A DNA stretch of 42,318 nucleotides, taken from contig JASEGU010000009.1 of assembly GCA_030017835.1 (NCBI GenBank), positions 5,100 to 47,417 of the forward strand. The letters are read 5' to 3'. The first letter of the stretch is position 1. The number at the start of each line of letters is the position of its first letter. Position numbers and translations under genes: made by a program. This DNA comes from Actinomycetota bacterium. GTDB taxonomy: Bacteria; Actinomycetota; Aquicultoria; UBA3085; Oleimmundimicrobiaceae. Positions 4,972 to 39,050 of this stretch are shown here, in pieces. The notes beneath the pieces were generated by a model. It was not told where the DNA came from. It made no database searches and was given only the letters and a program-made list of their open reading frames with translations.

Positions 4972-4990
4972 TTGGGTAGTCATTTGCCCT

Positions 4991-5038
4991 TTTTGAGCCA
5001 AGGAAGTTTCATGATTTTGAGCCAAGGAAGTTTCATGA
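4991..5038 (+). repeat. Exact 24-bp tandem duplication of a ribosome binding site and start codon
   Basis: Two identical 24-bp units lie head to tail (4991-5014 and 5015-5038). Each contains AAGGAAG, a 4-nt spacer TTTC and ATGA. Because 24 is a multiple of three, both ATGs (5011 and 5035) are in the same frame as the YbaK-like protein. Initiation at the first ATG would add eight residues. Confidence 0.95.
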
Positions 5039-5502
5039 GATCCAGCATAGATGTTCACAATCTGCTTAGGGAGAGGGATATTCCTCACGAAATCATCCCA
5101 ATGACCCACCCCATCAACTCGGCCGAGATGATGGCCGGCGTCTTAAATCTGCCAAAGAAAGGGGTATTCGCCTCTCACCTATACTTCTTCGACGATGAGC
5201 CCGTAATATTGATGCTGCCAGCCGGTTGCACGGCCTGCGAGGAGAAGCTTGCCAAAGTCATTTCCGCCTCTTTGATAAGACCGGCCAACGAGGACGAGGC
5301 ATCGGAAGCGACTGGATATATCAACGGCTCGATCCCTCCGGTTGCTCACCATCTTCAAATCAGGGTGGTCATGGATGAAACCTTGAGCGGAGAGGTAGTC
5401 CTCTATACCGCGGCGGGCGACCGTTTCACCATACTGAAGATAAAGCTGACCGATCTGTTAAAAGTCACCTCGGCTCTGATGGCAGACATCTCCAAAGCCT
5501 AA
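5035..5502 (+). CDS. YbaK/ProX-like aminoacyl-tRNA deacylase domain protein
   Basis: This 155-residue protein has the character of the YbaK/EbsC/ProXp family, which hydrolyses mischarged aminoacyl-tRNA: an N-terminal segment LLRERDIPHEII, a central VFASHLYFFDDEPVILMLPAG and a C-terminal segment near ITRPANEDEASEATGY. The typical family lysine of a KxL motif may correspond to LPKKGVF. Start choice is unusual: ATG 5035 and ATG 5011 each have an identical AAGGAAG, and an even earlier upstream in-frame start would run through the promoter region. I chose 5035 because the family-like sequence begins there. Substrate specificity cannot be told. Confidence 0.7.
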   Translation: MRSSIDVHNLLRERDIPHEIIPMTHPINSAEMMAGVLNLPKKGVFASHLYFFDDEPVILMLPAGCTACEEKLAKVISASLIRPANEDEASEATGYINGSIPPVAHHLQIRVVMDETLSGEVVLYTAAGDRFTILKIKLTDLLKVTSALMADISKA

Positions 5503-5528
5503 AATCGCTTAAAAAAATAGGAGATTTT

Positions 5529-7355
5529 TTGGGCGAAGACTTAATAGAGCTAATAGAGACCGACCCAAAGAATTGCGTGGCATGTCTGAGTTGTCTTAGG
5601 GCCTGCCCAGTCAATTGCATAGCGGTCAGGGGCAATCTTTTAGAAATAAACCATTTAAGCTGCATATACTGCGGAAGATGTTTGTCCGCCTGTCCAAGGG
5701 GAGCCTTGAAAGCCAAGGGGAGCATCAAGCGCCTAAGGAGGCTCCTCAAAGAGAAGGACAAGGTAGCGGCGATTTTGGCCCCAGAATATCTGGCCGCCTT
5801 CTACCCGTACGGCTCTACGGAGGTAGCGGCCGGTCTCATAAAACTCGGGTTTGAGGTCGTCGAGGGGACACTTCTAGGCGAGGAGGTCGTGGCGGCCGAA
5901 TATGAGAGGCTTCTTGCCGAGGCCGATGGAATGGCTCTGATCCGCTCGACCTGCCCCGTCGTCGTAAGCTTGATCGAAAAACACCACCCTGACCTGATAG
6001 CTCACTTAGCTCCGGTCGTCTCACCAATGATAGCCGCAGGTCGCCTGGTCAAGGCGATCAAAAAGAACCATGCCACCGTCTACATAACCCCCTGCATAGC
6101 GCATAAGGCCGAGCGGCGCGATCCCTCCTTAAAGAACTCCATCGATCTGGTCATAACCTTCGACGAACTCAAGGTGATCTTCCAAGAAGAAGAGATAGAT
6201 CTGTCCGAGCTCTCGGTCGCCAAAATCGATCCCATAGAGAGGATATTTAGAGTCAAATCGATGCCGGGGGGACTCCCCAAAGACGTCTTGAAGAGGGAGA
6301 ATTTCACTTCGACCGCCTTTCGGGTGGCGGACGACATATACGAGACTAAGCGTTATGTTAAGGCAGCCGAGGTGACCTTCAAAGGACTTGGCTTTCTGGA
6401 CGCAAGGGCCTGCTCGGGCTGCTTGAATTCGCCCGTCTTCAAGGTCGATCGGGACGATCTCTTGAGGCTGACTCAGCTTAAATCCCTGATCAAAAGGGCT
6501 TATTTAAAGGAACGCAAGAAGATAGCCTGGCCCGATCCCACAGAAGTCATCTCCAAACTTCCCTGGATAATGAGGAAGAGGGTATTTACAGAGAGAGAGG
6601 CTTTGGCGCCGTACCTGGTGGGGGAGGATCACGATGAGGTCCTTATCCGGGCGGGCCTTCTAGATGAGGAATTTGGCGCGATAGACTGCTCCTGCTGTGG
6701 TTACGACTCTTGCAGAGAGCTCTTTGCCGCCGTAGATATCGGTCTCGCCTCCCTCGACAATTGCTATATGCACCGGACGAAAAGGACCCCTGGCTGGCGT
6801 GAGGACTCTTTCGATTCTGGACGGCGCGACTATCTGACCGGTCTCTTGGAGAGAGAATCCCTACTGGAGCAACTGGAATTCGAGCTGAAAAGGTCCAACC
6901 GCTACGGCTTTGATCTCTCTCTGATAGCCATAGATCTCGACCACTTCACTTTGATCAACGAGGCCTACGGCCGCATCTACTCCGACGAGATCTTAAAGGA
7001 GGTGGCCAAGGGGCTCGGAGGCGACCTGCGCTCCAGCGACATAGCGGCAAGGGAAGGCGAGGATAATTTCATTCTCGTTCTGCCGGGAACCAATAAGACC
7101 AGGGCCTTTGCTTTGGCTGAGAAGCTTCGCAAGAAGATTGAGGGCTCACGGTTCGTCTATGGTAATTTTAGGATCCCGGTCACCGTAAGCATGGGGGTTG
7201 CCTCGAACGCGCCCGGCCAAGGGAGTTCTGCGAAGATCTTGGATTTGGCCAGGGCGGCACTGATCAGGGCCAAAGAGGAAGGCAGAAACGTCGTCTATCT
7301 CGCGCCGAGTGCTCCGGAAGGCCAAGTCAGATCGAACTCAAAAAACCCCGAGTGA
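5529..7355 (+). CDS. Ferredoxin / [FeFe]-hydrogenase-like / Fe-S / GGDEF fusion protein, probable redox sensor
   Basis: This 608-residue multidomain protein has no predicted membrane segment. Residues 16-56 hold two [4Fe-4S] motifs (CVACLSCLRACP, CIYCGRCLSACP). Residues of about 75-330 resemble the [FeFe]-hydrogenase large domain: STCPVV near 141, TPCIAHKAE near 188 and RACSGC near 295 sit where the hydrogenase L1, L2 and L3 motifs would be, but are reduced, and the last is CxxC rather than CxxxC. Near 387, CSCCGYDSC plus a later Cys form a 4Fe-4S (Fes-type) domain. The C terminus (about 434-590) is a GGDEF domain with a conserved IDLDHFTLINEAYG segment, but its signature reads GEDNF. I infer a redox- or gas-responsive signalling protein rather than a catalyst. 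It starts at TTG 5529 after TAGGAGA and lies just upstream of a LytS/LytTR pair. Confidence 0.75.
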   Translation: MGEDLIELIETDPKNCVACLSCLRACPVNCIAVRGNLLEINHLSCIYCGRCLSACPRGALKAKGSIKRLRRLLKEKDKVAAILAPEYLAAFYPYGSTEVAAGLIKLGFEVVEGTLLGEEVVAAEYERLLAEADGMALIRSTCPVVVSLIEKHHPDLIAHLAPVVSPMIAAGRLVKAIKKNHATVYITPCIAHKAERRDPSLKNSIDLVITFDELKVIFQEEEIDLSELSVAKIDPIERIFRVKSMPGGLPKDVLKRENFTSTAFRVADDIYETKRYVKAAEVTFKGLGFLDARACSGCLNSPVFKVDRDDLLRLTQLKSLIKRAYLKERKKIAWPDPTEVISKLPWIMRKRVFTEREALAPYLVGEDHDEVLIRAGLLDEEFGAIDCSCCGYDSCRELFAAVDIGLASLDNCYMHRTKRTPGWREDSFDSGRRDYLTGLLERESLLEQLEFELKRSNRYGFDLSLIAIDLDHFTLINEAYGRIYSDEILKEVAKGLGGDLRSSDIAAREGEDNFILVLPGTNKTRAFALAEKLRKKIEGSRFVYGNFRIPVTVSMGVASNAPGQGSSAKILDLARAALIRAKEEGRNVVYLAPSAPEGQVRSNSKNPE

Positions 7356-7497: not shown

Positions 7498-7525
7498 CCA
7501 AGGCCAGCTAGATATATTGTATAAT
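7495..7525 (+). promoter_or_regulatory. Promoter for the LytS/LytTR pair
   Basis: A perfect TATAAT (7520-7525) has weak -35 candidates, TTTCCA (7495-7500) or TTCCAA (7496-7501), 18-19 bp upstream. The ATG at 7524 overlaps this -10 box and so cannot be the translation start of the kinase if the promoter is used. This supports the GTG at 7554. Confidence 0.55.
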
Positions 7526-7553
7526 GTTCTTATTTATTCATTTGAGGGTAGCC

Positions 7554-8894
7554 GTGGTCGTAAAACACAAAGGTCGCCTGGAGGGCGAGTTTACTTTAAA
7601 GAATATCATCTGGATAAGCATGCTGACCGGCGTGACGGTAGCCACCATCACCTGGGTCTTGTCCGGTTTCGGTTTGACGCGCACCTTTATCGGTCCGCTC
7701 ATACTCGGCCTGTTCATTGCCCTCTCGATGCCGACGGTTTTAAAGTTTCTGGTCGCCATGATCGAGCCAGATCATTTGAAAGCGGCCTATTCCCATCAGA
7801 CTTTCGAAATAGCCAATGCTACCCTGCCGCATCTTAGGACGGGTCTAAATGAGCGGTCGGCTGAAGAGGTGGCCAAAATACTCAAAGGAGGCTCGGACGC
7901 AGTGGCCGTGGCCTTGACCAATCTTAGCACGGTTCTCGCCTTCTCGGGGGCTGGAGAGGATCACCATATGGCCGGCCAACCCATAATGACCAGAGCGACT
8001 AAGGAGGCCTTAAAACATAACGAACTGAGAATCCTCTCGAGCAAGGATGAGATAGGTTGCCCCAAGGAGGGGTGCGTCTTAAGTTCGGCCATCGTCGTCC
8101 CCTTAGAGTTGAAGGATAGGGCCATCGGTAGTCTCAAGTTCTATTACGCCGATGCCAAGGAGCTTACCGAAAGCCGGATCACGCTTGCGGCCGGACTTGC
8201 CAAACTCTTGAGCACCCAGCTCGAGTTATCCGAGCTGGATAGGCAGGAGCAACTGGCTTGCAAAGCCGAGCTAAAAGCGCTTCAGGCTCAGATAAATCCC
8301 CACTTCCTCTTCAATACCCTAAACACCATTGCAAGTCTCTGTAGGACCGATCCCAAGAAGGCAAGGATACTCATAATCCAATTTGCCGACTTCTTCCGCC
8401 AGTCCTTAGAAAGGGAGTCGGATCTCATAACCCTGGCCGATGAGCTCGATTACGTGCGCTCATATCTCATCTTGGAGAAGGCCAGATTCGGGCAGAACCT
8501 TCAGGTGATCGAGGAGATAGATGAGGCAGCGCTCGGGGTCAGGATACCGGCGCTGACCATTCAGCCCCTGGTTGAAAATTCGATCAAACACGGCGGGAGC
8601 ATGGAGGGGCATATCAAGATAAAGATAGAGGCCAAAGTCAAGGGGGGCGAGGTGGCTGTGATAGTTCGAGATAACGGCCAGGGCATCGAGAAGGGCGACC
8701 TCAAAGAGATACTTACGCCCGGCTTCGGCAAAGGCATGGGAATAGGCTTGAGCAATGTAAGCGAAAGGGTTAAGGGCTTTTATGGCGAAGATTATCCATT
8801 GGACGTCTGGAGCGTGAAGGATAAAGGGACCAGGATAACCATCCGCATCCCCTTGAGCGGGAGGCAAGTTGAAGCTAAGAGTGCTTATAGTTGA
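7554..8894 (+). CDS. LytS/YpdA-type sensor histidine kinase
   Basis: This 446-residue membrane sensor kinase pairs with the LytTR regulator that follows. Two hydrophobic segments are visible at about residues 16-38 and 45-70, then a GAF-like region (about 110-215). The His-kinase domain has QAQINPHFLFNTLNTI, with the phospho-accepting His near residue 250, and an HATPase domain with LVENSIKHG (about 340) and DNGQGI. The GTG at 7554 has GAGGG 5 nt upstream; the in-frame ATG at 7524 lies inside the -10 box. The gene ends 26 nt inside the next one. The signal is not evident, though related systems (BtsS, YpdA) respond to pyruvate-type metabolites. Confidence 0.88.
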   Translation: MVVKHKGRLEGEFTLKNIIWISMLTGVTVATITWVLSGFGLTRTFIGPLILGLFIALSMPTVLKFLVAMIEPDHLKAAYSHQTFEIANATLPHLRTGLNERSAEEVAKILKGGSDAVAVALTNLSTVLAFSGAGEDHHMAGQPIMTRATKEALKHNELRILSSKDEIGCPKEGCVLSSAIVVPLELKDRAIGSLKFYYADAKELTESRITLAAGLAKLLSTQLELSELDRQEQLACKAELKALQAQINPHFLFNTLNTIASLCRTDPKKARILIIQFADFFRQSLERESDLITLADELDYVRSYLILEKARFGQNLQVIEEIDEAALGVRIPALTIQPLVENSIKHGGSMEGHIKIKIEAKVKGGEVAVIVRDNGQGIEKGDLKEILTPGFGKGMGIGLSNVSERVKGFYGEDYPLDVWSVKDKGTRITIRIPLSGRQVEAKSAYS

Positions 8895-9606
8895 TGATGA
8901 GGCTCCGGCCAGGTCGGAGTTGAGGTATATGCTGCAGCAGCTTGGCAACGTCGAAGTTGTCGGCGAGGCGACCAATGCGAGTGAGGCCATCGAATTGATC
9001 AAGGCTCTCGCCTACGATGTTGTCTTTCTCGACATCCAGATGCAGGGGTTGAGCGGTCTTCAGGTGGCCGAGATAGTGAAAGAGCTTCCCGTATCGCCGA
9101 TCGTCGTCTTCGTGACGGCCTATGGCGAGCATGCGGTCAAGGCCTTTGAGCTTGACGCCGTGGACTACCTGGTCAAGCCGTTTGAAGAGGATCGTCTGAA
9201 GAAGACGATCGAGAGAATAAAGAAGAAAGGCCAAGGATCCAAGGAGAAGAGGGAGGGCCAGCCTGCCCCCAAGTCGGCCGTTGATCTGCTTCCGGTCCAA
9301 GAGAAGGGCAAGACCATACTCATCTCCATCAGTGATGTCTCATACATCCACGCCCAGAATGAGAGGATTTTTGTCCACGCCCAAGGCGGCGTCTACCATA
9401 CCGGGTTGAACCTAAAGGAACTCGAAGATCGACTTAAAGGCCACGACTTCATGAGGACTCACCGGAGCTATCTGGTCAACATAAGGAAGGCCAAGGAACT
9501 CATCCCGATGTTTCACGGCAGCTTCATCATCCGCTTGAGCGGTGGCATAGAGGTCCCGGTCAGCAGGAGAAAGGCCAAAGAGCTCAAATCATTGCTCGGA
9601 TTATGA
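8869..9606 (+). CDS. LytTR-family response regulator
   Basis: The 245-residue regulator has an N-terminal receiver domain: the acidic pair in LIVDDE, phospho-accepting Asp55 in VVFLDIQM, and the Lys in DYLVKPF. After a charged linker (about 122-140) comes a C-terminal LytTR DNA-binding domain (about 145-245), with ISDVSYIHAQNERIFVHA and FMRTHRSYLVN. It starts at TTG 8869, preceded by GGGAGG, inside the end of the kinase gene, so the pair is translationally coupled. It is followed by the promoter of the Wood-Ljungdahl block, making that block a candidate target (inference from position). Confidence 0.93.
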   Translation: MKLRVLIVDDEAPARSELRYMLQQLGNVEVVGEATNASEAIELIKALAYDVVFLDIQMQGLSGLQVAEIVKELPVSPIVVFVTAYGEHAVKAFELDAVDYLVKPFEEDRLKKTIERIKKKGQGSKEKREGQPAPKSAVDLLPVQEKGKTILISISDVSYIHAQNERIFVHAQGGVYHTGLNLKELEDRLKGHDFMRTHRSYLVNIRKAKELIPMFHGSFIIRLSGGIEVPVSRRKAKELKSLLGL

Positions 9607-9758: not shown

Positions 9759-11453
9759 GTGAAGAGCGATTTGGAGATCGCCCAAGAGGCTAAACTTAAG
9801 CTCATCGGCGAGATCGCAAAGGATTTTGGATTACTGGAAGATGAGATCGAGCATTACGGCAAGTACAAGGCCAAAGTCGCGCTTTCGGCTTCCGAGCGTT
9901 TGAAAGATAGGCCAAACGGCAAGTACATCGACGTTACGGCCATCACCCCCACCCCTCTTGGCGAGGGTAAGACGGTTACGACCATCGGTCTCTCGCTTGG
10001 TTTAAACGCCATCGGTAAGAAGGTTGCTACCTGCATCCGACAGCCCTCATTGGGGCCGGTCTTTGGCATCAAGGGCGGAGCGGCTGGCGGCGGATATTCG
10101 CAGGTCCTGCCGATGGAGGACTTCAACCTCCACTTTACCGGAGATGTCCATGCGGTAAGTCTGGCCACCAATCTCTTGGCGGCCGTCATCGATAATCACT
10201 TGCTCAAAGGGAACAAGCTTAGGATAGATCAGAGCAGCATCAGTTGGAATAGGGTCTTAGACGTGAGCGACCGAGCCCTTAGAAATATCGTCATCGGCCT
10301 GGGTGGCAAGATAAACGGCATCCCCAGAGAGGCCGGTTTTGATATCGCCGTCGCCTCCGAGGTCATGGCCATTCTGGCCATGACGAGCGATCTTAAGGAT
10401 TTGCGGCAGCGCCTTGGCCGGATAGTCGTCGCTTTCAATGAGGATGGCAAGCCGGTTACGGCCGAGGATCTGGAGTGCGGCGGAGCCATGACCGCCCTCA
10501 TGAAGGACGCCATAAAACCCAACCTCATCCAGACGACCGAAAATACTCCGGTCATGGTCCACGCCGGGCCCTTCGCCAATATCGCTCAGGGCAACAGCTC
10601 GATCATCGCTGACCGCATCGCCCTCAAGTTGGCCGATTACGTGGTGACCGAGAGCGGTTTTGGAGCCGACCTTGGGGCCGAGAAATTCATGAACATCAAG
10701 TGCAGGGCGAGCGGGCTTAAGCCGGATTGCGCCGTGGTGGTGGCCACGGTCAGAGCCCTCAAGATGCACAGCGGGCGCTTTACGGTGGTGGCCGGAAAGC
10801 CGCTCGATCCGGCCTTGCTTAAGGAGAACTTGGACTCGCTTTCGCTTGGCCTCTCCAATTTGGAGGCCCACATCACAAGCCTTAAGAATTTCGGCATTCC
10901 GATCGTGGTGGCCATCAACAAGTTCTTGACCGACACCGATAACGAAATAAATCTAATAAGGGAGCGGGCCATAGAGGCCGGAGCCGAGGATGCCGTCAAG
11001 AGCGAGGTCTGGGCCAAAGGCGGAAGCGGCGGCAAGGAGCTGGCCGAGGCGGTAGTCAAGGCGGCCGATAAGCCTTCTCAGTTCAAACTGCTCTATCCAG
11101 ATGACGCTTCGATCAAAGAGAAGATCGAGACGATTGCGACCAAGATCTATGGGGCCGACGGGGTCGATTACTCGCCGGTCGCCCTAAAGAAGACGGACCT
11201 CTTCACCGAGTTGGGTTGGGATAAGTATCCGATCTGCATGGCCAAGACCCACCTCTCCATCTCGCACGATCCGGCCTTGAAGGGGAGGCCCAAGGGCTTT
11301 AGGGTTCCCATCAGGGATATCCGTCCCTCGATCGGGGCCGGCTTTCTCTATCCGCTCCTTGGCGACATGAGGACGATGCCGGGCCTGCCTTCCGTTCCAG
11401 CCTCAACCAAGATTGACATTGATGAAAACGGGCGGATAGTCGGATTATTCTAG
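9759..11453 (+). CDS. fhs: Formate-tetrahydrofolate ligase
   Basis: This enzyme joins formate to tetrahydrofolate with ATP, giving 10-formyl-THF in the methyl branch of the Wood-Ljungdahl pathway. The P-loop-like PTPLGEGKTVTTIGLSLGL lies near residues 66-84, followed by CIRQPSLGPVFGIKGGAAGG. MEDFNLHFTGD and the C-terminal PSIGAGFLYPLLGDMRTMPG are also typical. The length, 564 residues, is close to the usual 555-560. GTG at 9759 is the start, with a strong AAGGGGGGA 7 nt upstream. It is the first gene after the predicted promoter of the main operon. Confidence 0.98.
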   Translation: MKSDLEIAQEAKLKLIGEIAKDFGLLEDEIEHYGKYKAKVALSASERLKDRPNGKYIDVTAITPTPLGEGKTVTTIGLSLGLNAIGKKVATCIRQPSLGPVFGIKGGAAGGGYSQVLPMEDFNLHFTGDVHAVSLATNLLAAVIDNHLLKGNKLRIDQSSISWNRVLDVSDRALRNIVIGLGGKINGIPREAGFDIAVASEVMAILAMTSDLKDLRQRLGRIVVAFNEDGKPVTAEDLECGGAMTALMKDAIKPNLIQTTENTPVMVHAGPFANIAQGNSSIIADRIALKLADYVVTESGFGADLGAEKFMNIKCRASGLKPDCAVVVATVRALKMHSGRFTVVAGKPLDPALLKENLDSLSLGLSNLEAHITSLKNFGIPIVVAINKFLTDTDNEINLIRERAIEAGAEDAVKSEVWAKGGSGGKELAEAVVKAADKPSQFKLLYPDDASIKEKIETIATKIYGADGVDYSPVALKKTDLFTELGWDKYPICMAKTHLSISHDPALKGRPKGFRVPIRDIRPSIGAGFLYPLLGDMRTMPGLPSVPASTKIDIDENGRIVGLF

Positions 11454-11471
11454 GGCGATCTGAGATAAGAA

Positions 11472-13385
11472 GTGAAGCATAAGATAAGTTTTTTACCCGA
11501 TAATCTTGAGGCTGTGGCCATGGACGGCGAGGATATTCTAGCCGTCCTGACCTCAACCGGACTTAAGATAAATGCCTCGTGTGGCGGGGCCGGCACCTGC
11601 GCTAGGTGTAAATTGATCCTTGAAAAAGGCAAAATAGAAGGTGGAGGCCGTGAAAGGCTCGACCAAGATGAGGTGGAGGCCGGCTATTTCTTGGCTTGCA
11701 AGGCGTCTGCTGTAAGCGACCTTGTCGTCAGGATTCCGGACGCCTCGCGCCAAAACGACCTCTTTGAGTCGGACGAGGGGGCGACATCGCTTGCGGCTTT
11801 GGAGGACAGCCTTAAATTTTGGCTTATCGACATGCCGGTCAAAAAGGTCCAGCTAAAGCTTCCAAAGCCCAACCTTACCGACAGCGTCGATGATCTTCGC
11901 CGCTTAAAGAGGGTGTTTGCCATCAAGATTGCCTCGGATAAGGAGATTCTGGCCGACCTGGATCTTGTCAGGTCCCTTGCCAAGGCCATAAGGGACGCCG
12001 ATTTTCTGGTTACGGTGAGCTATATTGAGACCGCTTCCAGTATCGAAATCATTCGAGTCGAAGCGGGCGATACCACCAAAGATCACTTTGCCGTGGCCGT
12101 CGATGTAGGGACGACCACCATCGGGGCGAGCTTGATAGATCTCGTGCAGGAGAGAGAGGTGGCCTCGCTCTCCAGTTATAATGGCCAGGCCAATTTCGGT
12201 GATGACGTCATCTCAAGGATCATCTTTGCCGCCAAACCGAATGGACTTACCAAACTTAAAGATGCGGTGGTTGTCACCATAAGCGGTCTGATAACCGGAC
12301 TTCTTGAAAAGAGCGGTCGAACGGCAGGCGACATCTCGGCCATCTTTTTGGCCGGAAATACCATCATGACCCACCTCCTTCTCGGCATAGATCCCAAATA
12401 TATCAGGGAGGAGCCATATATCCCGACCGCGGTCGATTTTCCCTGGATGAAGGCGGCCGATTTGAATCTGGATATCCTTGGCCACGCTCGCGCTTTCGTC
12501 TTTCCTTCGGTTGCAAGTTATGTGGGCGGCGACGTAGTTGCCGGGGTGGTGGCCAACCGAATCTCCAGCGGCGACAAGCTGACGCTCTATATAGACGTGG
12601 GGACCAATGGCGAGATAGTCCTCGGCAACTCGGATTGGCTGATGGCTTGCTCATGTTCGGCCGGGCCAGCCTTTGAGGGCGGCGGCGTAAAAGATGGCAT
12701 GAAAGCGGCCGAAGGGGCCATCGAAAAGGTCGAGATAGACGAGGAGAGCCTCGAGGCCAGGGTATCGGTCATCGGTGGAGTAAAGCCCTCCGGTATCTGC
12801 GGATCCGGTCTGATAGATCTCTTGGCGGAGCTCTTTTTAAAGAGGGTGGTCGACCAGAGGGGCAAGATAGACCCAGCCCTTAAAGGTCCAAGGATAAGAG
12901 AGAACGGGGGCGGCCTGGAATACATCGTCGCCTTCGGGAGCGAGACAGCGAGCGGACGCGACATCGTCATCGGCGAGGCCGATATCGATAACCTGCTTCG
13001 AGCCAAGGCGGCCGTCTTTGCCGGGGTTACGATGCTTCTCGAAAGCATGAGTTTGAACCCCGAGTCCATCGACGAGATATTGATCGCCGGCTCTTTCGGG
13101 CGCTACTTAAATGTCGAAAAGATTCAGATCATCGGGATGCTCTTTGAGACCGAGGCGGGTAAAGTCAGATACGTCGGAAACGGCTCGTTGAGTGGGGCGA
13201 CGCTAGCTGCCCTCTCCAAGCAAGTGATAAGCGAAGCAGAGAAGGTGGCCGAACGGATGACCTATTTGGAACTGAGCGCCGACCCAAAATTTATGGACGC
13301 CTATATATCGGCTCTCTTTCTCCCCCACACCGATGTCGAGCTCTTCCCATCGGTGATGGAGAGATTTAAGGCGGCCGGGACATAA
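11472..13385 (+). CDS. acsV: ATP-dependent reductive activator of the corrinoid iron-sulfur protein (RACo)
   Basis: This protein uses ATP to reduce inactive Co(II) in the corrinoid protein AcsCD back to Co(I). The N-terminal ferredoxin-like domain carries a [2Fe-2S] motif: Cys37, Cys43, Cys46 and Cys76. The large C-terminal ASKHA-type ATPase domain begins near 205 with VAVDVGTTTIGASLIDL; VGTNGEIVLG and IAGSFGRYLN are further family segments. The 637-residue length matches the AcsV/Orf7 family. It starts with GTG at 11472, with only a weak AGATAAGAA upstream. It lies between fhs and cooC, as the function would suggest. Confidence 0.93.
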   Translation: MKHKISFLPDNLEAVAMDGEDILAVLTSTGLKINASCGGAGTCARCKLILEKGKIEGGGRERLDQDEVEAGYFLACKASAVSDLVVRIPDASRQNDLFESDEGATSLAALEDSLKFWLIDMPVKKVQLKLPKPNLTDSVDDLRRLKRVFAIKIASDKEILADLDLVRSLAKAIRDADFLVTVSYIETASSIEIIRVEAGDTTKDHFAVAVDVGTTTIGASLIDLVQEREVASLSSYNGQANFGDDVISRIIFAAKPNGLTKLKDAVVVTISGLITGLLEKSGRTAGDISAIFLAGNTIMTHLLLGIDPKYIREEPYIPTAVDFPWMKAADLNLDILGHARAFVFPSVASYVGGDVVAGVVANRISSGDKLTLYIDVGTNGEIVLGNSDWLMACSCSAGPAFEGGGVKDGMKAAEGAIEKVEIDEESLEARVSVIGGVKPSGICGSGLIDLLAELFLKRVVDQRGKIDPALKGPRIRENGGGLEYIVAFGSETASGRDIVIGEADIDNLLRAKAAVFAGVTMLLESMSLNPESIDEILIAGSFGRYLNVEKIQIIGMLFETEAGKVRYVGNGSLSGATLAALSKQVISEAEKVAERMTYLELSADPKFMDAYISALFLPHTDVELFPSVMERFKAAGT

Positions 13386-13386
13386 T

Positions 13387-14145
13387 ATGGCAAAGACGAT
13401 AGCTGTGGCCGGCAAGGGTGGAGTGGGCAAGACCACTATCAGCGGCTTGATAATTAAATATCTGTTAGAAAAGGGTCTCGGGCCGGTTCTGGCCGTAGAT
13501 GCCGATGCCAACTCCAACTTAGGCGAAGTCTTGGGGGTCGAGGCCAAAACCTCGATCGGCGGCCTTCGTGAAGATGTGGCTAAAAACGTCGAGCTCATTC
13601 CGGTTGGAATGCCCAAGGATGCTTTCCTGGAACTCAAGATCGCCGAGGTCTTGGTCGAGGCGACCGGGTTCGATCTTCTGGTTATGGGCCGCCCGGAGGG
13701 GCCGGGCTGCTACTGCTATGTCAACAATATTTTACGAAAGTACATGGAGATCCTGGCCAAGAGTTACAGATTTGTGGTCATGGATAATGAGGCCGGAATG
13801 GAGCACCTGAGCAGGCGGACCACCTATGAGGTGGATAAACTCCTTCTCATCTCCGACGCCGCTCCCCGGGGCATTCGGGCGGCGGCCAACATAAAGGAGC
13901 TGGCGGCCGATCTCAATCTTAAGGTCAATGAGATCCATCTGATAGTCAACAGGGCCGCCGCCCCAGAGCTCGATCCCCTGCTCCTAGAGGAGATAGAAGG
14001 GGGCGACTTGGAACTTTTGGGCGTGATCCCGACCGACATGAAGCTTGCTGAGCTGGACCTCAAGAAGAGACCGATATTTGAGCTTGGCAATGATTCGCCG
14101 GCTTACGCGGCCTTAACGGATCTTTTGAACGGTTTCAATCTATGA
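13387..14145 (+). CDS. cooC: CooC/AcsF-type nickel-insertion ATPase (copy 1)
   Basis: This is a MinD-like ATPase that matures the nickel sites of CODH or ACS. A deviant Walker A motif GKGGVGKTT lies near residues 9-17. The family's CxC metal-binding motif is Cys108-Tyr-Cys110 in GRPEGPGCYCYVNN, a form typical of the AcsF/CooC proteins of acetogens. VVMDNEAGMEHLSR follows, as usual. The 252-residue length is normal. It begins 1 nt after the acsV stop. A second, distinct CooC is encoded at 34659-35456. The assignment of copy 1 to ACS rather than CODH is only a suggestion. Confidence 0.93.
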   Translation: MAKTIAVAGKGGVGKTTISGLIIKYLLEKGLGPVLAVDADANSNLGEVLGVEAKTSIGGLREDVAKNVELIPVGMPKDAFLELKIAEVLVEATGFDLLVMGRPEGPGCYCYVNNILRKYMEILAKSYRFVVMDNEAGMEHLSRRTTYEVDKLLLISDAAPRGIRAAANIKELAADLNLKVNEIHLIVNRAAAPELDPLLLEEIEGGDLELLGVIPTDMKLAELDLKKRPIFELGNDSPAYAALTDLLNGFNL

Positions 14146-14168
14146 TGAATTTGAAAGGGGTTTGACGG

Positions 14169-15026
14169 ATGGCGGCAAAGATAATCGATGGGAAGGCGAT
14201 AGCGGCTGAGATCAGGGCCGAGATGAAGGAGGAAGCGGCAAGGCTCAAAGGGGAGGGCGTAGTCCCCGGCCTTGCGGTGGTCATAGTCGGTGAAGATCCG
14301 GCCTCCAAAGTCTACGTTGGCCAGAAGGAGAAGGGTTGCGAGGAGATAGGCATATATTCCGAAAAGCACGCCCTGCCGGCGGACGCCAGCGAAAAAGAGC
14401 TCTTGGCTTTGGTCGACAAGTTGAATCGAGACGATAAGATAAACGGGATACTGGTCCAACTCCCCTTGCCGGGGAGCATCGATGAGAAGAGGGTCCTCTA
14501 TGCCATCGATGTGGCCAAGGATGTCGACGGTTTCCATCCCGAAAACATCGGCAAGCTCGTCATCGGCGAGGAGACCTTTCTGCCCTGCACGCCCCACGGG
14601 ATAATGGTCCTGATCGAAAGGTCAGGCATTGACATCAAGGGCAAGCGGGCGGTCGTCATCGGTAGAAGTAACATAGTTGGAAAACCGATCTCACTCATGC
14701 TTTTGGCCAAGGACGCCACCGTCACCATTTGCCACTCCAAGACGAGCGATCTGGCTGTCCATACCAGAGAGGCCGACATTCTCGTCGTTGCCATCGGCAG
14801 GCCCGAAGCGGTCGGCGGCGATATGATAAAAGAAGGGGCCGTCGTCATCGATGTCGGAGTCAACCGTTTGGACAGCGGCAAATTGGTCGGCGACGTCGAG
14901 TTCGATAGCGCCGCCAAGGTGGCTGGGAATATCACTCCGGTGCCGGGCGGGGTCGGGCCGATGACCATCACCATGCTGCTCAAGAATACGATAGAGGCGG
15001 CCAAAATGGCCGCCAAAAATAGATAA
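14169..15026 (+). CDS. folD: Bifunctional methylene-THF dehydrogenase / methenyl-THF cyclohydrolase
   Basis: FolD converts 10-formyl-THF to methenyl- and then methylene-THF, the two steps after Fhs. The catalytic Tyr and Lys are in [16 protein letters not shown] (about residues 49-64). [24 protein letters not shown] and the nucleotide-binding [14 protein letters not shown] follow in order, ending with [15 protein letters not shown]. The 285-residue length is standard. AAAGGGG precedes the ATG at 14169. Whether it uses NADP or NAD cannot be decided by eye. It fits exactly between Fhs and MetF in the pathway and lies in the same operon. Confidence 0.98.
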
Positions 15027-15064
15027 CGGGTTAAAACCGAATTTGAAGGGAGATTTTTGAAAAG

Positions 15065-16003
15065 ATGCCATTTCAAGCACCGGTAGATACGTATCAAGGC
15101 AAGGTTAAAGAGGTTGAACTCGGCAAAGAGGGAAACAAGCGAAAGGTTGGCGGGGAGGCGACGCTTCCCTTCCATCTCTTCGAAGGCGAGATGGGCAATC
15201 GCCCTCTCATCGCCATGGAGGTCTGGGACATAGCTCCTTCAAGCTGGCCGAAAGAGGTAGCTGCCCCGTTTGCGGACGTCTCCTCAGATCCGGCCCAATG
15301 GGCCAAGAAGTGCGAGACCGAGTTTGGGGCGGATATGATCTTTCTTCGCCTGATGTCGACCGACCCCAACGGGGACGACGGTGACGCTGCAAAAGCGGCC
15401 GAGGCGGCGGCGGCCGTCTGCGAGGTGGTTAACGTGCCGGTCTGCGTCTACGGCAGCGGCAATGTCGAAAAGGATGGAGAGGTCCTAAAGAAGGTGGCCG
15501 AGGCGACCGAGGGTAGCGCCCTCATCATCGGTCCCTCTCAGGAGGATAACTACCGGCCCATAACGGCCGCGGCTATAGGTTACAAGCACAGCGTCTCCGG
15601 TCTTTCGCCGATCGATGTCAACATGGCCAAACAGCTCAACATCCTGATGACCCAGCTCGGCCTCTCAAATGATCATCTGGTGATGGACCCGAGCGGAGCG
15701 GCTCTGGGCTACGGTCTTGAGTACGCCTACTCGATAATGGAGCGTCTAAGGCTGGCTGCCCTTCAACAGAATGATGAGATGACCCAGATGCCGATGCTCT
15801 GCGATCTGGGTCGCGAGGTCTGGAAGGCGAAGGAGGCCAAGTCCGAGGATGAACCCGCTTGGGGCGATGCCAAAAGGCGAGGGATACTCTGGGAGGCTAT
15901 GACGGCTGCCAGCATGCTGATAGCCGGAGGCGACATCCTGGTCATGAGGCATCCCGAGGCCGTCAAGATGGTCAAGGAGTTTATCAAGGAACTTTTGGAT
16001 TAG
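15065..16003 (+). CDS. acsD: Corrinoid iron-sulfur protein small subunit (CODH/ACS delta)
   Basis: This subunit, with AcsC, forms the cobalamin protein that carries the methyl group from methyl-THF to acetyl-CoA synthase. The 312-residue TIM-barrel protein shows the family segments RPLIAMEVWD, VCVYGSGNVEKDGEVL, LIIGPSQEDNYRPI and HLVMDPSGAALGYGLEY. The length is typical. The ATG at 15065 lies rather far (about 11 nt) from GGGAGA. Here acsD is separated from acsC by the nuo-like genes and CODH/ACS, unlike the common adjacent acsC-acsD arrangement. Confidence 0.96.
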   Translation: MPFQAPVDTYQGKVKEVELGKEGNKRKVGGEATLPFHLFEGEMGNRPLIAMEVWDIAPSSWPKEVAAPFADVSSDPAQWAKKCETEFGADMIFLRLMSTDPNGDDGDAAKAAEAAAAVCEVVNVPVCVYGSGNVEKDGEVLKKVAEATEGSALIIGPSQEDNYRPITAAAIGYKHSVSGLSPIDVNMAKQLNILMTQLGLSNDHLVMDPSGAALGYGLEYAYSIMERLRLAALQQNDEMTQMPMLCDLGREVWKAKEAKSEDEPAWGDAKRRGILWEAMTAASMLIAGGDILVMRHPEAVKMVKEFIKELLD

Positions 16004-16017
16004 TCTGGAGGATATTG

Positions 16018-16527
16018 ATGGGCGAGTGCGGTTGCAAGCAAACTCAAGACCAAAGTGAAGTATTTGATATCGATTCCGTAAGGATTCTGCTCGAGGGCTA
16101 TCGGGGCAAAGAGGAAGAGCTCGTCCATGCCCTGCAGGATGTCCAGCATACCCTGGGCTATCTTCCCAAAGAGGCGATGGAGATGATTGCCGATGTCTTC
16201 AACCTATCATTCTCCCACGTCTATGGGGTTGCTTCCTTCTACGCCCACTTCTATTTTGTTCCCAGGGGCAAGAATATCATCAAGGTCTGTACCGGTACCG
16301 CCTGTCACGTGCGCGGGGCCAAAACCATACTGGATGGTCTGGCTGGAGAACTCGGCATTGAGCCCGGCCAGACCTCAAGCGACATGGAGTTTACTTTGGA
16401 GACGGTGAGCTGTGTTGGATGCTGCGCGCTCGCTCCGGTTGTCGTGGTGGGCGAAGAGGTCTCCAAGGAGAGGACGCCAAAGAGACTCATCTCATCGATA
16501 AGAGAGGCTGAAGATGGCAAGGAATAG
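16018..16527 (+). CDS. nuoE: NuoE/HydC-like [2Fe-2S] subunit (copy 1)
   Basis: This 169-residue thioredoxin-like [2Fe-2S] protein is a 24-kDa-subunit relative that pairs with NuoF-type NADH-binding subunits. The cluster cysteines are in VCTGTACH (about 90-95) and SCVGCCALAP (about 131-135), i.e. Cx4C and Cx3C. The helical N terminus with VQHTLGYLPKEAM and YGVASFYAHF is typical. GGAGGAT lies 4 nt before the ATG at 16018. It overlaps the following nuoF by 14 nt. A paralogue is at 35466-35981. Confidence 0.93.
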   Translation: MGECGCKQTQDQSEVFDIDSVRILLEGYRGKEEELVHALQDVQHTLGYLPKEAMEMIADVFNLSFSHVYGVASFYAHFYFVPRGKNIIKVCTGTACHVRGAKTILDGLAGELGIEPGQTSSDMEFTLETVSCVGCCALAPVVVVGEEVSKERTPKRLISSIREAEDGKE

Positions 16528-18418
16528 GCTTAAAAATCCAAATGATCTCGGGCTCCTTAGGGAAGATATATTGAACAAAAAAGCCTTGGACGGCCACTCC
16601 GTCAAGGTATGTTGCGGCACGGGCTGCAGGGCCTCGGGGGCCGAGAAAGTGGTCAGCTCCCTGATGAGCGAGGCGGCCAGGGCCGGCTTGGATCTTGAGG
16701 TCAGACCGACCGGCTGTCAGGGTCTCTGCGAGAAGGGGCCGATAGTCATCGCCGAAGCCGATCAGACCTTCTACAACAAGGTCGACGCCTTCGATGCGCC
16801 CAAGATAGTAGACCTCACCCTAAAGAGGGGCGAAAAGATAGATCGTCTTCTGGTCCAAGATCCTATCACCGGCCAGAGGGCAAATACGGAAGAGGAGATT
16901 TCCTTCTATGCCAAGCAGGAGCGGGTAGTCCTAAAGAACTGCGGCCACATCAATCCCGAGAGCATAGAGGAGTATATAGTGGCTGGCGGCTATCAGGCCT
17001 TGGCCAAGGCGCTAAGCCAAATGACGCCAGATGAGGTCCTGAGCGAAGTCAAGGCGGCCAGGCTCAGGGGTCGCGGCGGAGCCGGCTTCGATGCCGGGGT
17101 CAAGTGGGAGGGCGCAAAGAGGGTTAAAAGTCAAATCAAGTACATAATCTGCAACGGCGACGAGGGAGATCCGGGCGCCTTCATGGATAGGAGCCTTCTG
17201 GAGGGAGATCCCCACGCCGTCATCGAGGGCATGATAATTGGAGCCTACGCCGTCGGAGACTGTCATAACGGTTATATCTACGCCCGCGGCGAGTATCCGC
17301 TAGCGGTCAAGAATTTAAATATCGCTATCGGCCAGGCTAGAGAGCTGGGCTTGCTTGGCAAGGATATCTTGGGGAGCGGTCTCGATTTCGATATCGAGGT
17401 CAAGAAGGGGGCCGGCGCCTTCATCTGCGGCGAATCGACGGCTCTGATGTTCTCCATCGAGGGCAAGCGGGGCATGCCAAGGCCGACCCCACCCCGTTCG
17501 GTGGAAAAAGGCCTCTATGGTAAGCCGACCGTCCTAAATAACGTCGAGACCTTAGCCAACATTGGGCCCATCATTTTGAAGGGAGCCGATTGGTTCAAAT
17601 CGATCGGCACGGAGGGCTCGCCGGGGACCAAAATATTTGCCTTGACCGGACGAGTCAAGAATACGGGGCTCATCGAGGTTCCAATGGGGATCACCATCCG
17701 CGAGATAATATACGATATCGGCGGCGGCATCATCGATGACAAGGAGTTCAAGGCGGCTCAGATGGGTGGGCCAAGCGGCGGCTGCATCCCCAAAGAGCAT
17801 CTGGATCTACACATCGACTTCGACTCCTTGGGGCGAGTCGGAGCAATGATGGGCTCAGGTGGCCTGGTTATCATGGACGAGTCCGATTGCATGATAGAGA
17901 TCGCCCGCTACTTCCTCTCCTTCACCCAGGTGGAATCGTGCGGTAAATGTCCGCCTTGCCGCATTGGGACCTTCGAGATGCTCGAGATATTGACATCCAT
18001 AGTCGAGGGCAAAGGAAGAGAGGGCGACATCGAGCGCTTAGAAGAGATCGGAGTGCGCATTCAACAGACGGCCCTATGTGGCCTGGGCAAGAGCGCGCCC
18101 AATCCGGTTCTCTCTACCATCAGATATTTTAGGGATGAATATGAGGCTCATATATCCAAGGATTTCTGCCCGGCCGGTGCTTGCGCAAGTCTTGGCCACT
18201 ACCGGGTGATTGAAGAGGAGTGTTTGATGTGCAACCTCTGCGTGGAGGCCTGCGCCTTCGATGCCATCATCGAAAAGAGGGGCAGTCTTTATATAGATGA
18301 GGTCTATTGCGAAAAATGTGGCGCCTGCATCGGGGTCTGTCCGACCTCGTGCATAGTCAGAGAGTTCGTCGAAAGGCCGGCTCTTAGCGGAAGCGGCAAA
18401 GGAGGTGGGGCGAAATGA
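16514..18418 (+). CDS. nuoF: NuoF/HydB-like NADH-binding flavoprotein (copy 1)
   Basis: This 634-residue subunit oxidises or reduces NAD(P)H through FMN. An N-terminal thioredoxin-like [2Fe-2S] domain (CCGTGC near 33, TGCQGLC near 66) precedes the FMN/NAD domain (LRGRGGAGFDAG, ICNGDEGDPGAFMDR, GAGAFICGESTAL). A SLBB domain and the [4Fe-4S] motif ESCGKCPPCRIGT (about 475) follow, then two ferredoxin motifs (CNLCVEACAFDA, CEKCGACIGVCP, about 570-615). This architecture is that of HydB/HndC of bifurcating hydrogenases and NADH-linked formate dehydrogenases. It overlaps nuoE by 14 nt and the next gene by 4 nt. Its partner is inferred to be the NuoG-like protein, since no hydrogenase is present. 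Confidence 0.95.
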   Translation: MARNRLKNPNDLGLLREDILNKKALDGHSVKVCCGTGCRASGAEKVVSSLMSEAARAGLDLEVRPTGCQGLCEKGPIVIAEADQTFYNKVDAFDAPKIVDLTLKRGEKIDRLLVQDPITGQRANTEEEISFYAKQERVVLKNCGHINPESIEEYIVAGGYQALAKALSQMTPDEVLSEVKAARLRGRGGAGFDAGVKWEGAKRVKSQIKYIICNGDEGDPGAFMDRSLLEGDPHAVIEGMIIGAYAVGDCHNGYIYARGEYPLAVKNLNIAIGQARELGLLGKDILGSGLDFDIEVKKGAGAFICGESTALMFSIEGKRGMPRPTPPRSVEKGLYGKPTVLNNVETLANIGPIILKGADWFKSIGTEGSPGTKIFALTGRVKNTGLIEVPMGITIREIIYDIGGGIIDDKEFKAAQMGGPSGGCIPKEHLDLHIDFDSLGRVGAMMGSGGLVIMDESDCMIEIARYFLSFTQVESCGKCPPCRIGTFEMLEILTSIVEGKGREGDIERLEEIGVRIQQTALCGLGKSAPNPVLSTIRYFRDEYEAHISKDFCPAGACASLGHYRVIEEECLMCNLCVEACAFDAIIEKRGSLYIDEVYCEKCGACIGVCPTSCIVREFVERPALSGSGKGGGAK

Positions 18419-18933
18419 AAGAGGGCTGCAGCGTCACCTTGGCCATCGATTTCTTCAAGGCCTTTTTGGCCGAGAAGATGTGCGCAAAATGTCTCCCTTG
18501 TATGATGGGGATGGCGCAGATACTCGGTATTTTGGAGGATATCTCAAGGGGCTCGGGTAAAGAAGAGGACCTCGAAGTCCTCGCTCACCTAGCCTCCCAA
18601 ATAGTCGACACCGCAAGGTGTAAGCTGGGCAGAGATGCGGCCGAGTTTCTGGCCGCCTCTCTGGAGAACCACAGAGAGGACTATCTTGAACATATCACAA
18701 ACAAGACCTGCTCGAGCAGCTTTTGTGATGAGATAACCTGCTTGAAGATAGAGCCGTCTGCCTGTACCATCTGTGGGGCCTGCAAGGAAGTCTGCCCCGA
18801 GGATGCCATAGTCGGCGAAGGCCTGGTCGCCTATCTGGCCGATAACAGGCCGATGAAAATAAGGACCAAGCGCTGCACAAGGTGCGGCCGCTGCCAAGAG
18901 GTCTGCATAACCGGGGCCATAGAAATTGTCTGA
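18415..18933 (+). CDS. Stand-alone NuoF-tail-like iron-sulfur protein (SLBB-type 4Fe-4S plus 2x ferredoxin)
   Basis: This 172-residue protein resembles only the C-terminal third of NuoF/HydB. Cys23, Cys26, Cys29 and Cys69 reproduce the CX2CX2CX39C spacing of the NuoF N3-type cluster. Two ferredoxin motifs follow: Cys117/120/123/127 and Cys154/157/160/164. The FMN and NADH domains are absent. It is coupled by ATGA to nuoF and by a short overlap region to the nuoG-like gene, so it is a regular member of the cluster, not debris. I infer an extra electron-transfer subunit of the same complex; I know of no firm name for it. Confidence 0.8.
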   Translation: MKEGCSVTLAIDFFKAFLAEKMCAKCLPCMMGMAQILGILEDISRGSGKEEDLEVLAHLASQIVDTARCKLGRDAAEFLAASLENHREDYLEHITNKTCSSSFCDEITCLKIEPSACTICGACKEVCPEDAIVGEGLVAYLADNRPMKIRTKRCTRCGRCQEVCITGAIEIV

Positions 18934-18952
18934 TGAGGGAGGAGAATTCAAG

Positions 18953-21487
18953 TTGAAAAAAGAGATCGCCTTGACCATAAATGATAATAAGGTATCAGCT
19001 CCGGAGGGAACCCTGATAATCGAGGCGGCCGAGTCGGCCGGCATCGATATCCCCCACCTCTGCTACTGCGAAAGCTTGGCCTCGACCGGGGCCTGCCGGG
19101 TCTGCATGGTTGAAGTCGAGGGAGCGAGGGGCCTGGTGGCTTCCTGTACCCAGAAGATCAAGGAGGGCATGAAGGTTACAACCGACAGCGAGAAGGTGAG
19201 AGCGGCGCGCCGTTTCGTGGTCGACCTCATCCTGTCCAATCATCCGGGTGACTGCTTGAGCTGCGATAAGAACGGAGTCTGCGAGCTTCAGAAGTACGCT
19301 TACGAGCTTGAGATAGACAAGACCAGTTTTTCAATGAAGGATCAGGGTTATGAATTGGATAGGGAGAACCCCTTCATCGAGCGCAACTACAACCTCTGCA
19401 TCCTCTGCGGCCGCTGCGTCCGCATCTGCAAAAAACAGAGCGAAGATGTGATCGATTTTGTGAAAAGGGGCATGCTGACCAAAGTATCGACTCCGATGGA
19501 TATTCCGCTCACCCAGGCTGGCTGCGATTTTTGCGGAAGTTGTCTAGCCGTCTGTCCGACCGCGGCCTTGATGGAGAAGGAGAGAAGGTTCAAGGGGCGT
19601 GAGTGGGAGATGGCCAGCGCCAAGACGACCTGTTCTTACTGCGGCGCCGGTTGCAGGCTGACCATCGACAGCGTCGGCGGCGAACTGGTCAGGGCAAGGG
19701 CGGAGGAGGCTACGGACTTCATCTGCTCGCGCGGCCGCTTCGGGTTCGATTTTGCCGGCAGCGATAAGCTGATAACAAAGCCCCTCATCAAGAAAGATGG
19801 CGCCTTTACCGAGGCGACCTACGATGAGGCCGTAAAATTCATCGCATCCCGCTTAAAAGAGATAAAAAAGGCCCACTCAGAGAAGAGCATAGGCGGCTTC
19901 ATCGGAGGGGCCGAGACCAACGAGACCATATATCTATTTCAGAAGTTCTTGCGCGCGGGCCTTGGCACAAACAACGTCGATAGCTCGGCCCGTCTTCTTG
20001 GCATGCCGGCCCTGATAGAGATGGAGGGCATGCTGGCAAGCGACGCCTTTGCCACCTTCGACGATTTGGAGGAGGCCGATTTCGTAATCGCTCTGGGCAG
20101 CGGTATGGCCGCCCATCCAAAACTGCTCGCCGCCCTTCGCCGCGTGGCCGCCAAGGGAGGCAAGGTCGCTTTGCTTGGAGCAAGGCCGCTTGACAAGAGG
20201 TTTTCCAATCTTACCATCACGGCTGGCTCGGAAGAATTCGCCCTTTCCGCCATCATAAAGGCGCTCTTGAGCGATGAAGCACTGGCCAAAGAGGCCGAGA
20301 AGATGGCCGGTTTTAAAGAACTCAAAAAATCGCTTAGCGGCTTAGATGAAAAGACCATCGAGAAGGAGACCTCGCTAAAAGCGGAGCAGTTTTCCGCCAT
20401 CGCTTCGAACTATCTGACCGCCAAGGCGCCCAAGATAGCTTTTTGTCCAGAGAAGCTTGGGCTTCACGCCATGGAACTGATGGCCGACATTCTCATCTTG
20501 ACCAGCAATTTTAAGTCATCGGTTCTGGCAAGCCTGGCTCTGGCCAACCTTAGGGGCGCGGCCGAGCTCGGGGCTCTGGCCGGTTTCTATCCCGGCCTCT
20601 TAAGAGACGGCGACGACCTGGCCAGAGTCAAAGAATCTTATGGCGGAAAACTGCCCAAGGCGGCCGAATCATCGATCGGCGAGATGCTCGGTCAGATGGG
20701 CTCGACCCTTCTGGCCATGTATATAATCGGTGAGGATCCCCCTGCTCATCTCGGAGATAAGACCGAGGCAAAGAAGGCCCTCTCTTCGCTCGATCTTCTG
20801 GTCGTTCAGGACTCCTTTATGACCGAGCTGACCGAGCTGGCCGATGTCGTCTTGCCCAAGCGAACCCCGCTTGAGGAGGAGGGGACCTATATATCTTACG
20901 GGGCAAGCATTGTCGAGGTTCATCCGGCAAAGGAGAGCGATCTTAAGGCGACGGCTCAAGTGATAGCCGATTTGAGCGGGGCAATGGGTCATCCGATGAA
21001 ATACTCATCCATCAAGGATATCACCAAGGAGCTTAAGACCTTCATCCCGTCTCCGGATAAGGGTAAAGGACAGGTCCCAAGTCTTACGGCCGCAAATCCC
21101 ACTCTTCAAGGTGAAGGACTGGACAAAGCTTATCCTTACGCCCTTATGGTGGAGACGGGCAAGTTCGGTTTCTACGACAAGAGCCGGACAGATAACTCAA
21201 AACTATCTAAGATCGACCCGGCCGCCGCTTTAAGCATATCTATTTCGAAGGCGGACGGGGTGGCGCTAAATCTCTGCGATGGGGATGAGGCCAAGATAGA
21301 ATCGAGGCGGGCCCAGGCTCAGGCCACGGTCAGAATCGACGAAAGCTTGCCGGCTGGTGCGGTCAGTATGGCCGAGGCGAATGAAGCATGGGCCTTGCTT
21401 GCCAGCGGTAATATCGATGCCAAACTTAAGGTCCCAGAGTATAATCTATTCGCCGTAAAGATTTCAAAAGGAGGCGATGTGAGTTGA
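18953..21487 (+). CDS. nuoG: NuoG/FdhA-like iron-sulfur molybdopterin-fold protein with degenerate active site
   Basis: This 844-residue protein has the NuoG/FDH plan: [2Fe-2S] ferredoxin (LCYCESLASTGACRVC, about 36-51), His-Cys cluster (HPGDCLSCDKNGVC, about 98-111), two ferredoxin motifs (CILCGRCVRICK near 149; CDFCGSCLAVCP near 192) and a molybdopterin-type [4Fe-4S] (CSYCGAGC near 227). Where FDH has ARLUH, it reads ARLLG: Leu349 and Gly350 replace the catalytic Sec/Cys and His, so formate oxidation is not expected. I place the start at TTG 18953, after GAGGGAGGAG; TTG 18926 lies upstream of this site. It overlaps cooS by 4 nt. I infer an electron-wiring scaffold with NuoE/NuoF. Confidence 0.88.
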   Translation: MKKEIALTINDNKVSAPEGTLIIEAAESAGIDIPHLCYCESLASTGACRVCMVEVEGARGLVASCTQKIKEGMKVTTDSEKVRAARRFVVDLILSNHPGDCLSCDKNGVCELQKYAYELEIDKTSFSMKDQGYELDRENPFIERNYNLCILCGRCVRICKKQSEDVIDFVKRGMLTKVSTPMDIPLTQAGCDFCGSCLAVCPTAALMEKERRFKGREWEMASAKTTCSYCGAGCRLTIDSVGGELVRARAEEATDFICSRGRFGFDFAGSDKLITKPLIKKDGAFTEATYDEAVKFIASRLKEIKKAHSEKSIGGFIGGAETNETIYLFQKFLRAGLGTNNVDSSARLLGMPALIEMEGMLASDAFATFDDLEEADFVIALGSGMAAHPKLLAALRRVAAKGGKVALLGARPLDKRFSNLTITAGSEEFALSAIIKALLSDEALAKEAEKMAGFKELKKSLSGLDEKTIEKETSLKAEQFSAIASNYLTAKAPKIAFCPEKLGLHAMELMADILILTSNFKSSVLASLALANLRGAAELGALAGFYPGLLRDGDDLARVKESYGGKLPKAAESSIGEMLGQMGSTLLAMYIIGEDPPAHLGDKTEAKKALSSLDLLVVQDSFMTELTELADVVLPKRTPLEEEGTYISYGASIVEVHPAKESDLKATAQVIADLSGAMGHPMKYSSIKDITKELKTFIPSPDKGKGQVPSLTAANPTLQGEGLDKAYPYALMVETGKFGFYDKSRTDNSKLSKIDPAAALSISISKADGVALNLCDGDEAKIESRRAQAQATVRIDESLPAGAVSMAEANEAWALLASGNIDAKLKVPEYNLFAVKISKGGDVS

Positions 21488-25645: not shown

Positions 25646-25738
25646 GCAGCGGAGAGGCGCCTTTAGCTGTCAGTAGGCAGAAGATAAGGAGGCAGATACC
25701 GATAAATTGCAGCAAAATCTAGCAAAAGGAGATAGTTT

Positions 25739-39043: not shown

Positions 39044-39050
39044 GCCCATC

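Follow-up and report, generated by a model that had tools for sequence, protein, structure and literature searches.

A HydA-like iron-sulfur protein with a degenerate GGDEF domain, from a recurrent family that has probably lost the hydrogen-splitting cofactor

One gene in the stretch of Actinomycetota DNA analysed here (42,318 nucleotides, hereafter the window) encodes a protein that joins a hydrogenase-like iron-sulfur sensor half to a GGDEF output domain. Our preferred reading, to which we assign a probability of about 0.5, is that this protein is a redox sensor built on the H-domain of sensory hydrogenases and having no [2Fe] subcluster, and that its output is not a cyclase, the best guess being a domain that binds c-di-GMP or a partner. 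GGDEF-linked HydA-like proteins are a family and not a one-off fusion, and on the evidence of its pocket residues the hydrogenase scaffold has probably lost the cofactor that splits hydrogen.

The gene, its domains and its recurrent neighbours are listed in Table 1. A Pfam scan of the 608-aa protein matched Fer4 (E 1e-9), Fe_hyd_lg_C at residues 78-301 (E 1.7e-37) and GGDEF at residues 433-587 (E 2.2e-30, 106 bits), with no match to a PAS domain. The FeS domain PF04060 stayed below threshold (17.3 bits against a cut-off of 23), yet the spacing of C387, C390, C395 and C412 is exactly the Cx2Cx4Cx16C motif reported for TamHydS (PMC8163306, PMC6984386). The frame and the Pfam matches thus agree with a preliminary description of this DNA, which had read a ferredoxin, a HydA-like core, a Fes-type cluster and a GGDEF domain in one chain. 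A chance fusion, a frameshift or a misassembly was ruled out by the recurrence of the architecture in most of the class. Structure prediction, suggested in that description as a check of the H-cluster pocket, yielded a confident GGDEF fold, the only reliable part of the AlphaFold2 model; most of the H-domain had a pLDDT of about 30-50, too low for reading pocket geometry.

Table 1. Positions in the window of the GGDEF-linked HydA-like gene, its functional elements and its recurrent neighbours
Feature	Position	Strand	Basis or remark
YbaK-like aminoacyl-tRNA editing protein, recurrent upstream neighbour	4972..5502	+	
AGGAGA, likely ribosome-binding site, 4 nt 5' of the TTG start	5519..5524	+	Sequence read
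Whole gene, 608 aa: 2x[4Fe-4S] ferredoxin, HydA-like H-domain, Cx2Cx4Cx16C FeS, degenerate GGDEF	5529..7355	+	Single uninterrupted frame, TTG start
Ferredoxin domain, residues 10-61; C16/C19/C22/C26 and C45/C48/C51/C55	5556..5711	+	Pfam Fer4 families; Cys conserved in the family
HydA-like H-domain, residues 78-302	5760..6434	+	PF02906, E 1.7e-37; 31/32 family-conserved positions retained
Glu86, position of CpI Ser232	5784..5786	+	E in 36/36 family members; A or S in 34/34 comparators
L1, R139-S-T-C142-P; Arg at CpI T297, Thr at C299; C142 a cubane ligand	5943..5957	+	Alignment
L2, P188-C189-I-A-H192-K-A-E195; C189 a cubane ligand; His at CpI K358	6090..6113	+	Alignment
L3, R293-A-C295-S-G-C298-L-N; two cubane ligands; Arg at CpI M497	6405..6428	+	Alignment
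C-terminal [4Fe-4S] motif, C387-x2-C390-x4-C395-x16-C412	6687..6764	+	Motif as in TamHydS (PMC8163306)
Linker to GGDEF, residues 413-432, contains Pro-Gly	6765..6824	+	Relatives: unbroken stretch, likely helix
GGDEF domain, residues 433-592	6825..7304	+	PF00990, E 2.2e-30; predicted fold, pLDDT mostly 82-97
Intact I-site, R501-S-S-D504	7029..7040	+	RxxD in 36/36 family members
Degenerate A-site, G510-E-D-N-F514	7056..7070	+	GGDEF in 29/29 other aligned class members and L072
LytS-type histidine kinase (PF06580), recurrent downstream neighbour	7524..8894	+	
LytR-type response regulator, pairs with the LytS-type kinase	8869..9606	+	

When 40 genomes were searched at the protein level, most of the class proved to have the same architecture, and the domain-architecture search proposed earlier showed that it also recurs outside the class, in another group of the phylum (f55) and in one Gemmatimonadetes MAG. 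PF02906 occurs in one copy per genome in 33 of the 36 class genomes, among them that of the window, where the gene described here is its sole bearer; it was missing in three (G011, G015 and G016, of which G015 is only 71% complete). Thirty of the 33 class members were aligned, one of these (L037) beginning at a contig end. Outside the aligned set are the member in G023, cut by a contig end, and those in G028 and G030, which match PF02906 weakly yet match both query halves within a 592-aa frame. Five f55 genomes carry relatives at 31-34% identity and the Gemmatimonadetes MAG carries one (L072); a first scan of genome contigs gave no match, and a second gave mostly plain GGDEF proteins with L072 as the exception. 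The GGDEF-linked set used below (n = 36) consists of the 30 class members, the five from f55 and L072. The window protein shows the architecture, the E86/R139 signature and the neighbourhood of the class's GGDEF-linked family, and it groups with its own family in a tree of the sensor half (SH-aLRT 100; short search, the window protein being a long branch).

Both in the class and in f55, lysC-asd and lytS-lytR usually flank the gene, and in the class ybaK is mostly found just upstream. The LytS kinase gene begins 168 bp downstream of the window gene; other genes intervene in many relatives, and the arrangement is described here as a recurrent neighbourhood, not as a demonstrated operon. A partnership between the window protein and the adjacent LytSR pair is conceivable. 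No hydrogenase operon was seen beside the gene in the neighbourhoods examined. Members of families f1, f4 and f13 have the first Wood-Ljungdahl genes a short distance further on, a proximity that at most hints at redox control of this pathway. In two distant genomes a protein with a radical-SAM-like motif (CNLRCKHCQNW / CSMRCLHCQNW) is encoded directly downstream of the HydA-like gene (L199 7854-8906 and L190 9773-10780). The window itself contains a Wood-Ljungdahl cluster at 9759-27085 (+), with fhs, an AcsV-like protein, a MinD/CooC-like ATPase, folD, a CdhD-type subunit, a NuoF-like protein, a molybdopterin oxidoreductase, CODH, acetyl-CoA synthase and the gamma subunit. An in-frame TGA at 40107 splits formate dehydrogenase alpha (39018-41738, +) into two ORFs; read as selenocysteine, it gives the context CARLUHAPT, and the enzyme is probably a selenoprotein. 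Gene content suggests that the host is an anaerobe with the Wood-Ljungdahl pathway.

In the output domain the window protein is the exception within its family. Its GGDEF motif reads GEDNF (G511E and E513N) and is accompanied by K474T, D478E, H482R and G485S; 11 of 48 conserved GGDEF positions are lost, many of them catalytic or substrate positions, against 0-4 in 22 other class representatives. The I-site RxxD, D469, D471, N477, D512, K582 and R586 are kept. The window protein alone is degenerate among the 30 aligned class members. All the others and L072 keep GGDEF, which suggests an Fe-S-controlled cyclase as the general form of the family and the window protein as a derived one; the class relatives with a canonical motif are probably cyclases. 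The five f55 proteins read RGDQF, GGDQF, RGDQF, TGDQF and VGDRF with RxxD intact. At least two changes of A-site state fall on the sensor-half tree, with the same short search and long branch, and the motifs point to independent loss of the cyclase active site in the lineage of the window and in f55 (5/5). RxxD occurs in about 53% of GGDEF domains overall (PMC3974145), and the cyclase-competent relatives here all have it too, so that it may have been kept by inheritance and not by selection.

The surrounding genome would probably not depend on the window protein for c-di-GMP. One search gave seven GGDEF matches, behind which stand, besides the window protein, three full-length canonical proteins, an incomplete GGEEF frame and a degenerate GADKF protein. 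There is also one PilZ protein; the check for other c-di-GMP genes proposed in the preliminary description thus found further such genes. Since three canonical GGDEF proteins are encoded elsewhere, c-di-GMP can probably be made without the window protein. The GADKF protein (L217, G000:C25:10085-10852) is a second degenerate GGDEF protein of the same genome. With the I-site intact and at least three canonical GGDEF proteins available, c-di-GMP binding, earlier offered as one alternative, is a sensible proposal. The output may possibly be an I-site receptor like PopA or SgmT, which are c-di-GMP receptors with a dead A-site and an intact I-site (PMC3509222). By sequence the window protein resembles them in its degenerate A-site and intact RxxD; it differs in having an Fe-S hydrogenase-like sensor in place of receiver or GAF/kinase parts, and its c-di-GMP binding is putative.

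The same domain could instead be decaying, so that GGDEF persists as a ligandless relic beside an Fe-S half that still serves by itself in electron transfer or partner binding. The pattern of divergence lends this some weight. Conserved positions kept by the window protein number 10/11 in the ferredoxin domain and 31/32 in the H-domain but 37/48 in GGDEF; around the FeS motif 7/11 are kept, including all four cysteines. Residues 370-425 share 24-27% identity with same-family relatives that share 64-76% among themselves, and the linker contains a Pro-Gly. Divergence between the window protein and its sisters, relative to that among the sisters, is about 1.7-1.9-fold for the ferredoxin and H-domains and 2.4-2.5-fold for linker plus GGDEF. 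The linker and the FeS surroundings are the most diverged part, and output and sensor could no longer be coupled. Against decay, the GGDEF domain still scores 106 bits to Pfam and is predicted to be well folded, and it keeps RxxD and the six further residues named above. Moreover, the divergence is partly lineage-wide, because neighbour genes of the same genome have also diverged (ratio about 1.3-2.3-fold; acsV 53-55% in the genome of the window vs 78-88% among sisters). An initial view of strong acceleration of the whole gene was toned down in view of similar divergence in acsV and ybaK; the output half alone exceeds this background, by a modest margin. We regard a decaying output as unlikely, though worth keeping in view.

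The H-domain was examined in an alignment of the 36 GGDEF-linked proteins with 29 canonical HydA proteins of the phylum and five histidine-kinase-linked relatives from f38 genomes. The preliminary description had spoken of reduced L1-L3 motifs, which is correct for the positions of C299, M353 and M497, all changed; the four cubane cysteines (C142, C189, C295 and C298) are nevertheless present in the window protein and kept in 36/36 family members, and to judge from these ligands a complete H-cluster would still be compatible with the protein. The family departs from the comparators at other pocket positions. Besides the invariant Glu at S232, Arg occupies the T297 position in 36/36 (T or A in comparators) and K358 is lost in 32/36 (Lys in 34/34 comparators), so that the pocket of the window protein carries S232E, T297R and K358H. 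S232 and K358 count among the [2Fe]-holding residues; positions follow CpI numbering, which is used here also for residues other than those named in the TmHydS paper. Arg293, at the M497 position, was found only in the window protein among the aligned proteins. The TmHydS paper reports that residues hydrogen-bonding [2Fe] are conserved in sensory types, with C299, M353 and M497 varying (PMC10055695). The kinase-linked relatives, four of five of which come from HydF/HydG-positive genomes, likewise have CxGC in L3 and changes at C299, M353 and M497, and CxGC was on this ground rejected as a sign of a dead site.

The maturases point the same way with less force than it seems. HydG was found in 0/40 genomes and HydF over cut-off likewise in 0/40; the check for hydF and hydG suggested for the genome of the window found neither. 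In a phylum search listing genomes with matches and some without, no HydG match was reported for f55; HydF over cut-off was not found in the f55 genome G154, nor HydG over cut-off in the Gemmatimonadetes genome carrying L072. The searches were able to detect both proteins, which were found together in G204, G238, G377 and G402. The kinase-linked proteins sit in three f38 genomes, of which G204 and G402 have both maturases and G366 neither at the thresholds used. However, many phylum genomes with strong or canonical HydA are likewise without HydF and HydG, which makes the absence weaker than it looks and no more than supportive of a missing [2Fe] half. As proof of a missing H-cluster it was rejected: the single-contig genomes G291 and G356, with canonical HydA, also lack both. 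Their proteins (L180 and L173, respectively) carry the canonical TSCCP/MPC/CPGGC motifs. Strong PF02906 matches without HydF/HydG also occur in G346, G230, G277 and other phylum genomes, even in ones of one or two contigs.

These observations bear on the possibility that the protein is a putative sensory [FeFe]-hydrogenase whose full H-cluster senses H2 (or CO) and signals to the GGDEF domain, in the manner suggested for group C HydS. The intact cubane cysteines, the N-terminal clusters and Cx2Cx4Cx16C motif as in TmHydS/TamHydS, and the features shared with kinase-linked relatives from maturase-positive genomes all speak for it. Those relatives, however, keep Ser232 and Lys358 where the GGDEF-linked family has Glu, Arg and no Lys, precisely in a pocket whose [2Fe]-bonding residues are reported as conserved; Arg293 and the lack of a second PF02906 gene in the genome add to the difficulty. 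Given the [2Fe]-pocket changes and that HydF/HydG were not found, H2 sensing by a normal H-cluster is unlikely and a redox sensor with [4Fe-4S] clusters only is the more likely of the two; we consider the full-H-cluster proposal improbable, and the H2 or CO signal first suggested for this protein was not borne out. Weaker still is the proposal that the GEDNF domain is an active diguanylate cyclase: the retained D512, D469/D471, N477 and K582/R586 and the activity of some degenerate motifs such as SGDEF and AGDEF (PMC3974145) are outweighed by the six substitutions and 11 lost positions, so that cyclase activity is very unlikely, as the preliminary description had also supposed.

The mechanism that we infer for the preferred reading, from cluster content and redox sensing through loss of catalysis and c-di-GMP binding to the downstream effect, would run as follows. 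Electrons would enter through the two N-terminal [4Fe-4S] clusters and pass to the cubane in the H-domain. No [2Fe] subcluster would be assembled there, as suggested by the invariant Glu86 and Arg139 where its pocket would be and by HydF/HydG not being found. If the cubane, or the Cx2Cx4Cx16C cluster adjoining the output, then changed in redox state or integrity, the conformation of the C-terminal half would shift with it, which in most relatives would control a diguanylate cyclase. In the lineage of the window and in f55, loss of the cyclase site with RxxD kept would have turned the output into a non-enzymatic domain, at best guess a pseudo-cyclase that binds a partner or c-di-GMP supplied by the other cyclases of the genome. 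The broader proposition, of a widespread family of redox switches with an H-domain devoid of [2Fe], Glu and Arg in the vacated pocket and a cyclase turned c-di-GMP receptor in at least two lineages, is tentative and, taken whole, rather doubtful.

Among known systems the closest are the group C/D putative sensory [FeFe]-hydrogenases TmHydS and TamHydS, with which the window protein shares two N-terminal [4Fe-4S] motifs, the H-domain, the Cx2Cx4Cx16C cluster, the missing C299 and the changed M353 and M497. Unlike them it has a GGDEF output and no PAS domain, Glu at S232, Arg at T297 and no K358; HydF/HydG were not found, and the gene is not beside a hydrogenase operon. As in the HydDB [FeFe] classes C1 (histidine kinase), C2 (chemotaxis) and C3 (phosphatase), the H-domain is linked to a signalling output, but here the chain itself carries GGDEF. 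A GGDEF-linked [FeFe] class is missing from HydDB, whose diguanylate-cyclase-linked class is [NiFe] 2c (PMC5037454). The kinase-linked relatives from f38 (L185-L189, in G402, G204 and G366; about 670 aa) have the same ferredoxin, H-domain and FeS parts, with the CxGC L3 and FeS motif of the window family; they lie close to NuoE/NuoF-type and hydrogenase genes and look like HydDB C1 sensors. Nar1 is an example of a hydrogenase-like protein reported to have no such activity (PMC12621388). Nar1/IOP1, the eukaryotic [FeFe]-hydrogenase-like proteins, are in that respect a parallel among H-domain relatives; they are a proposed cluster-trafficking factor with no GGDEF domain, and no orthology is claimed. 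Nothing relevant on a GGDEF-linked [FeFe] protein was met in the literature searched, and the GGDEF-linked H-domain family is apparently undescribed.

The single copy per genome and the recurrent neighbours suggest a core role of the family in these bacteria. Proteins of this kind risk being counted as [FeFe]-hydrogenases in metagenome surveys. A family that keeps the clusters and the output but apparently not the [2Fe] site could separate redox signalling from H2 binding.
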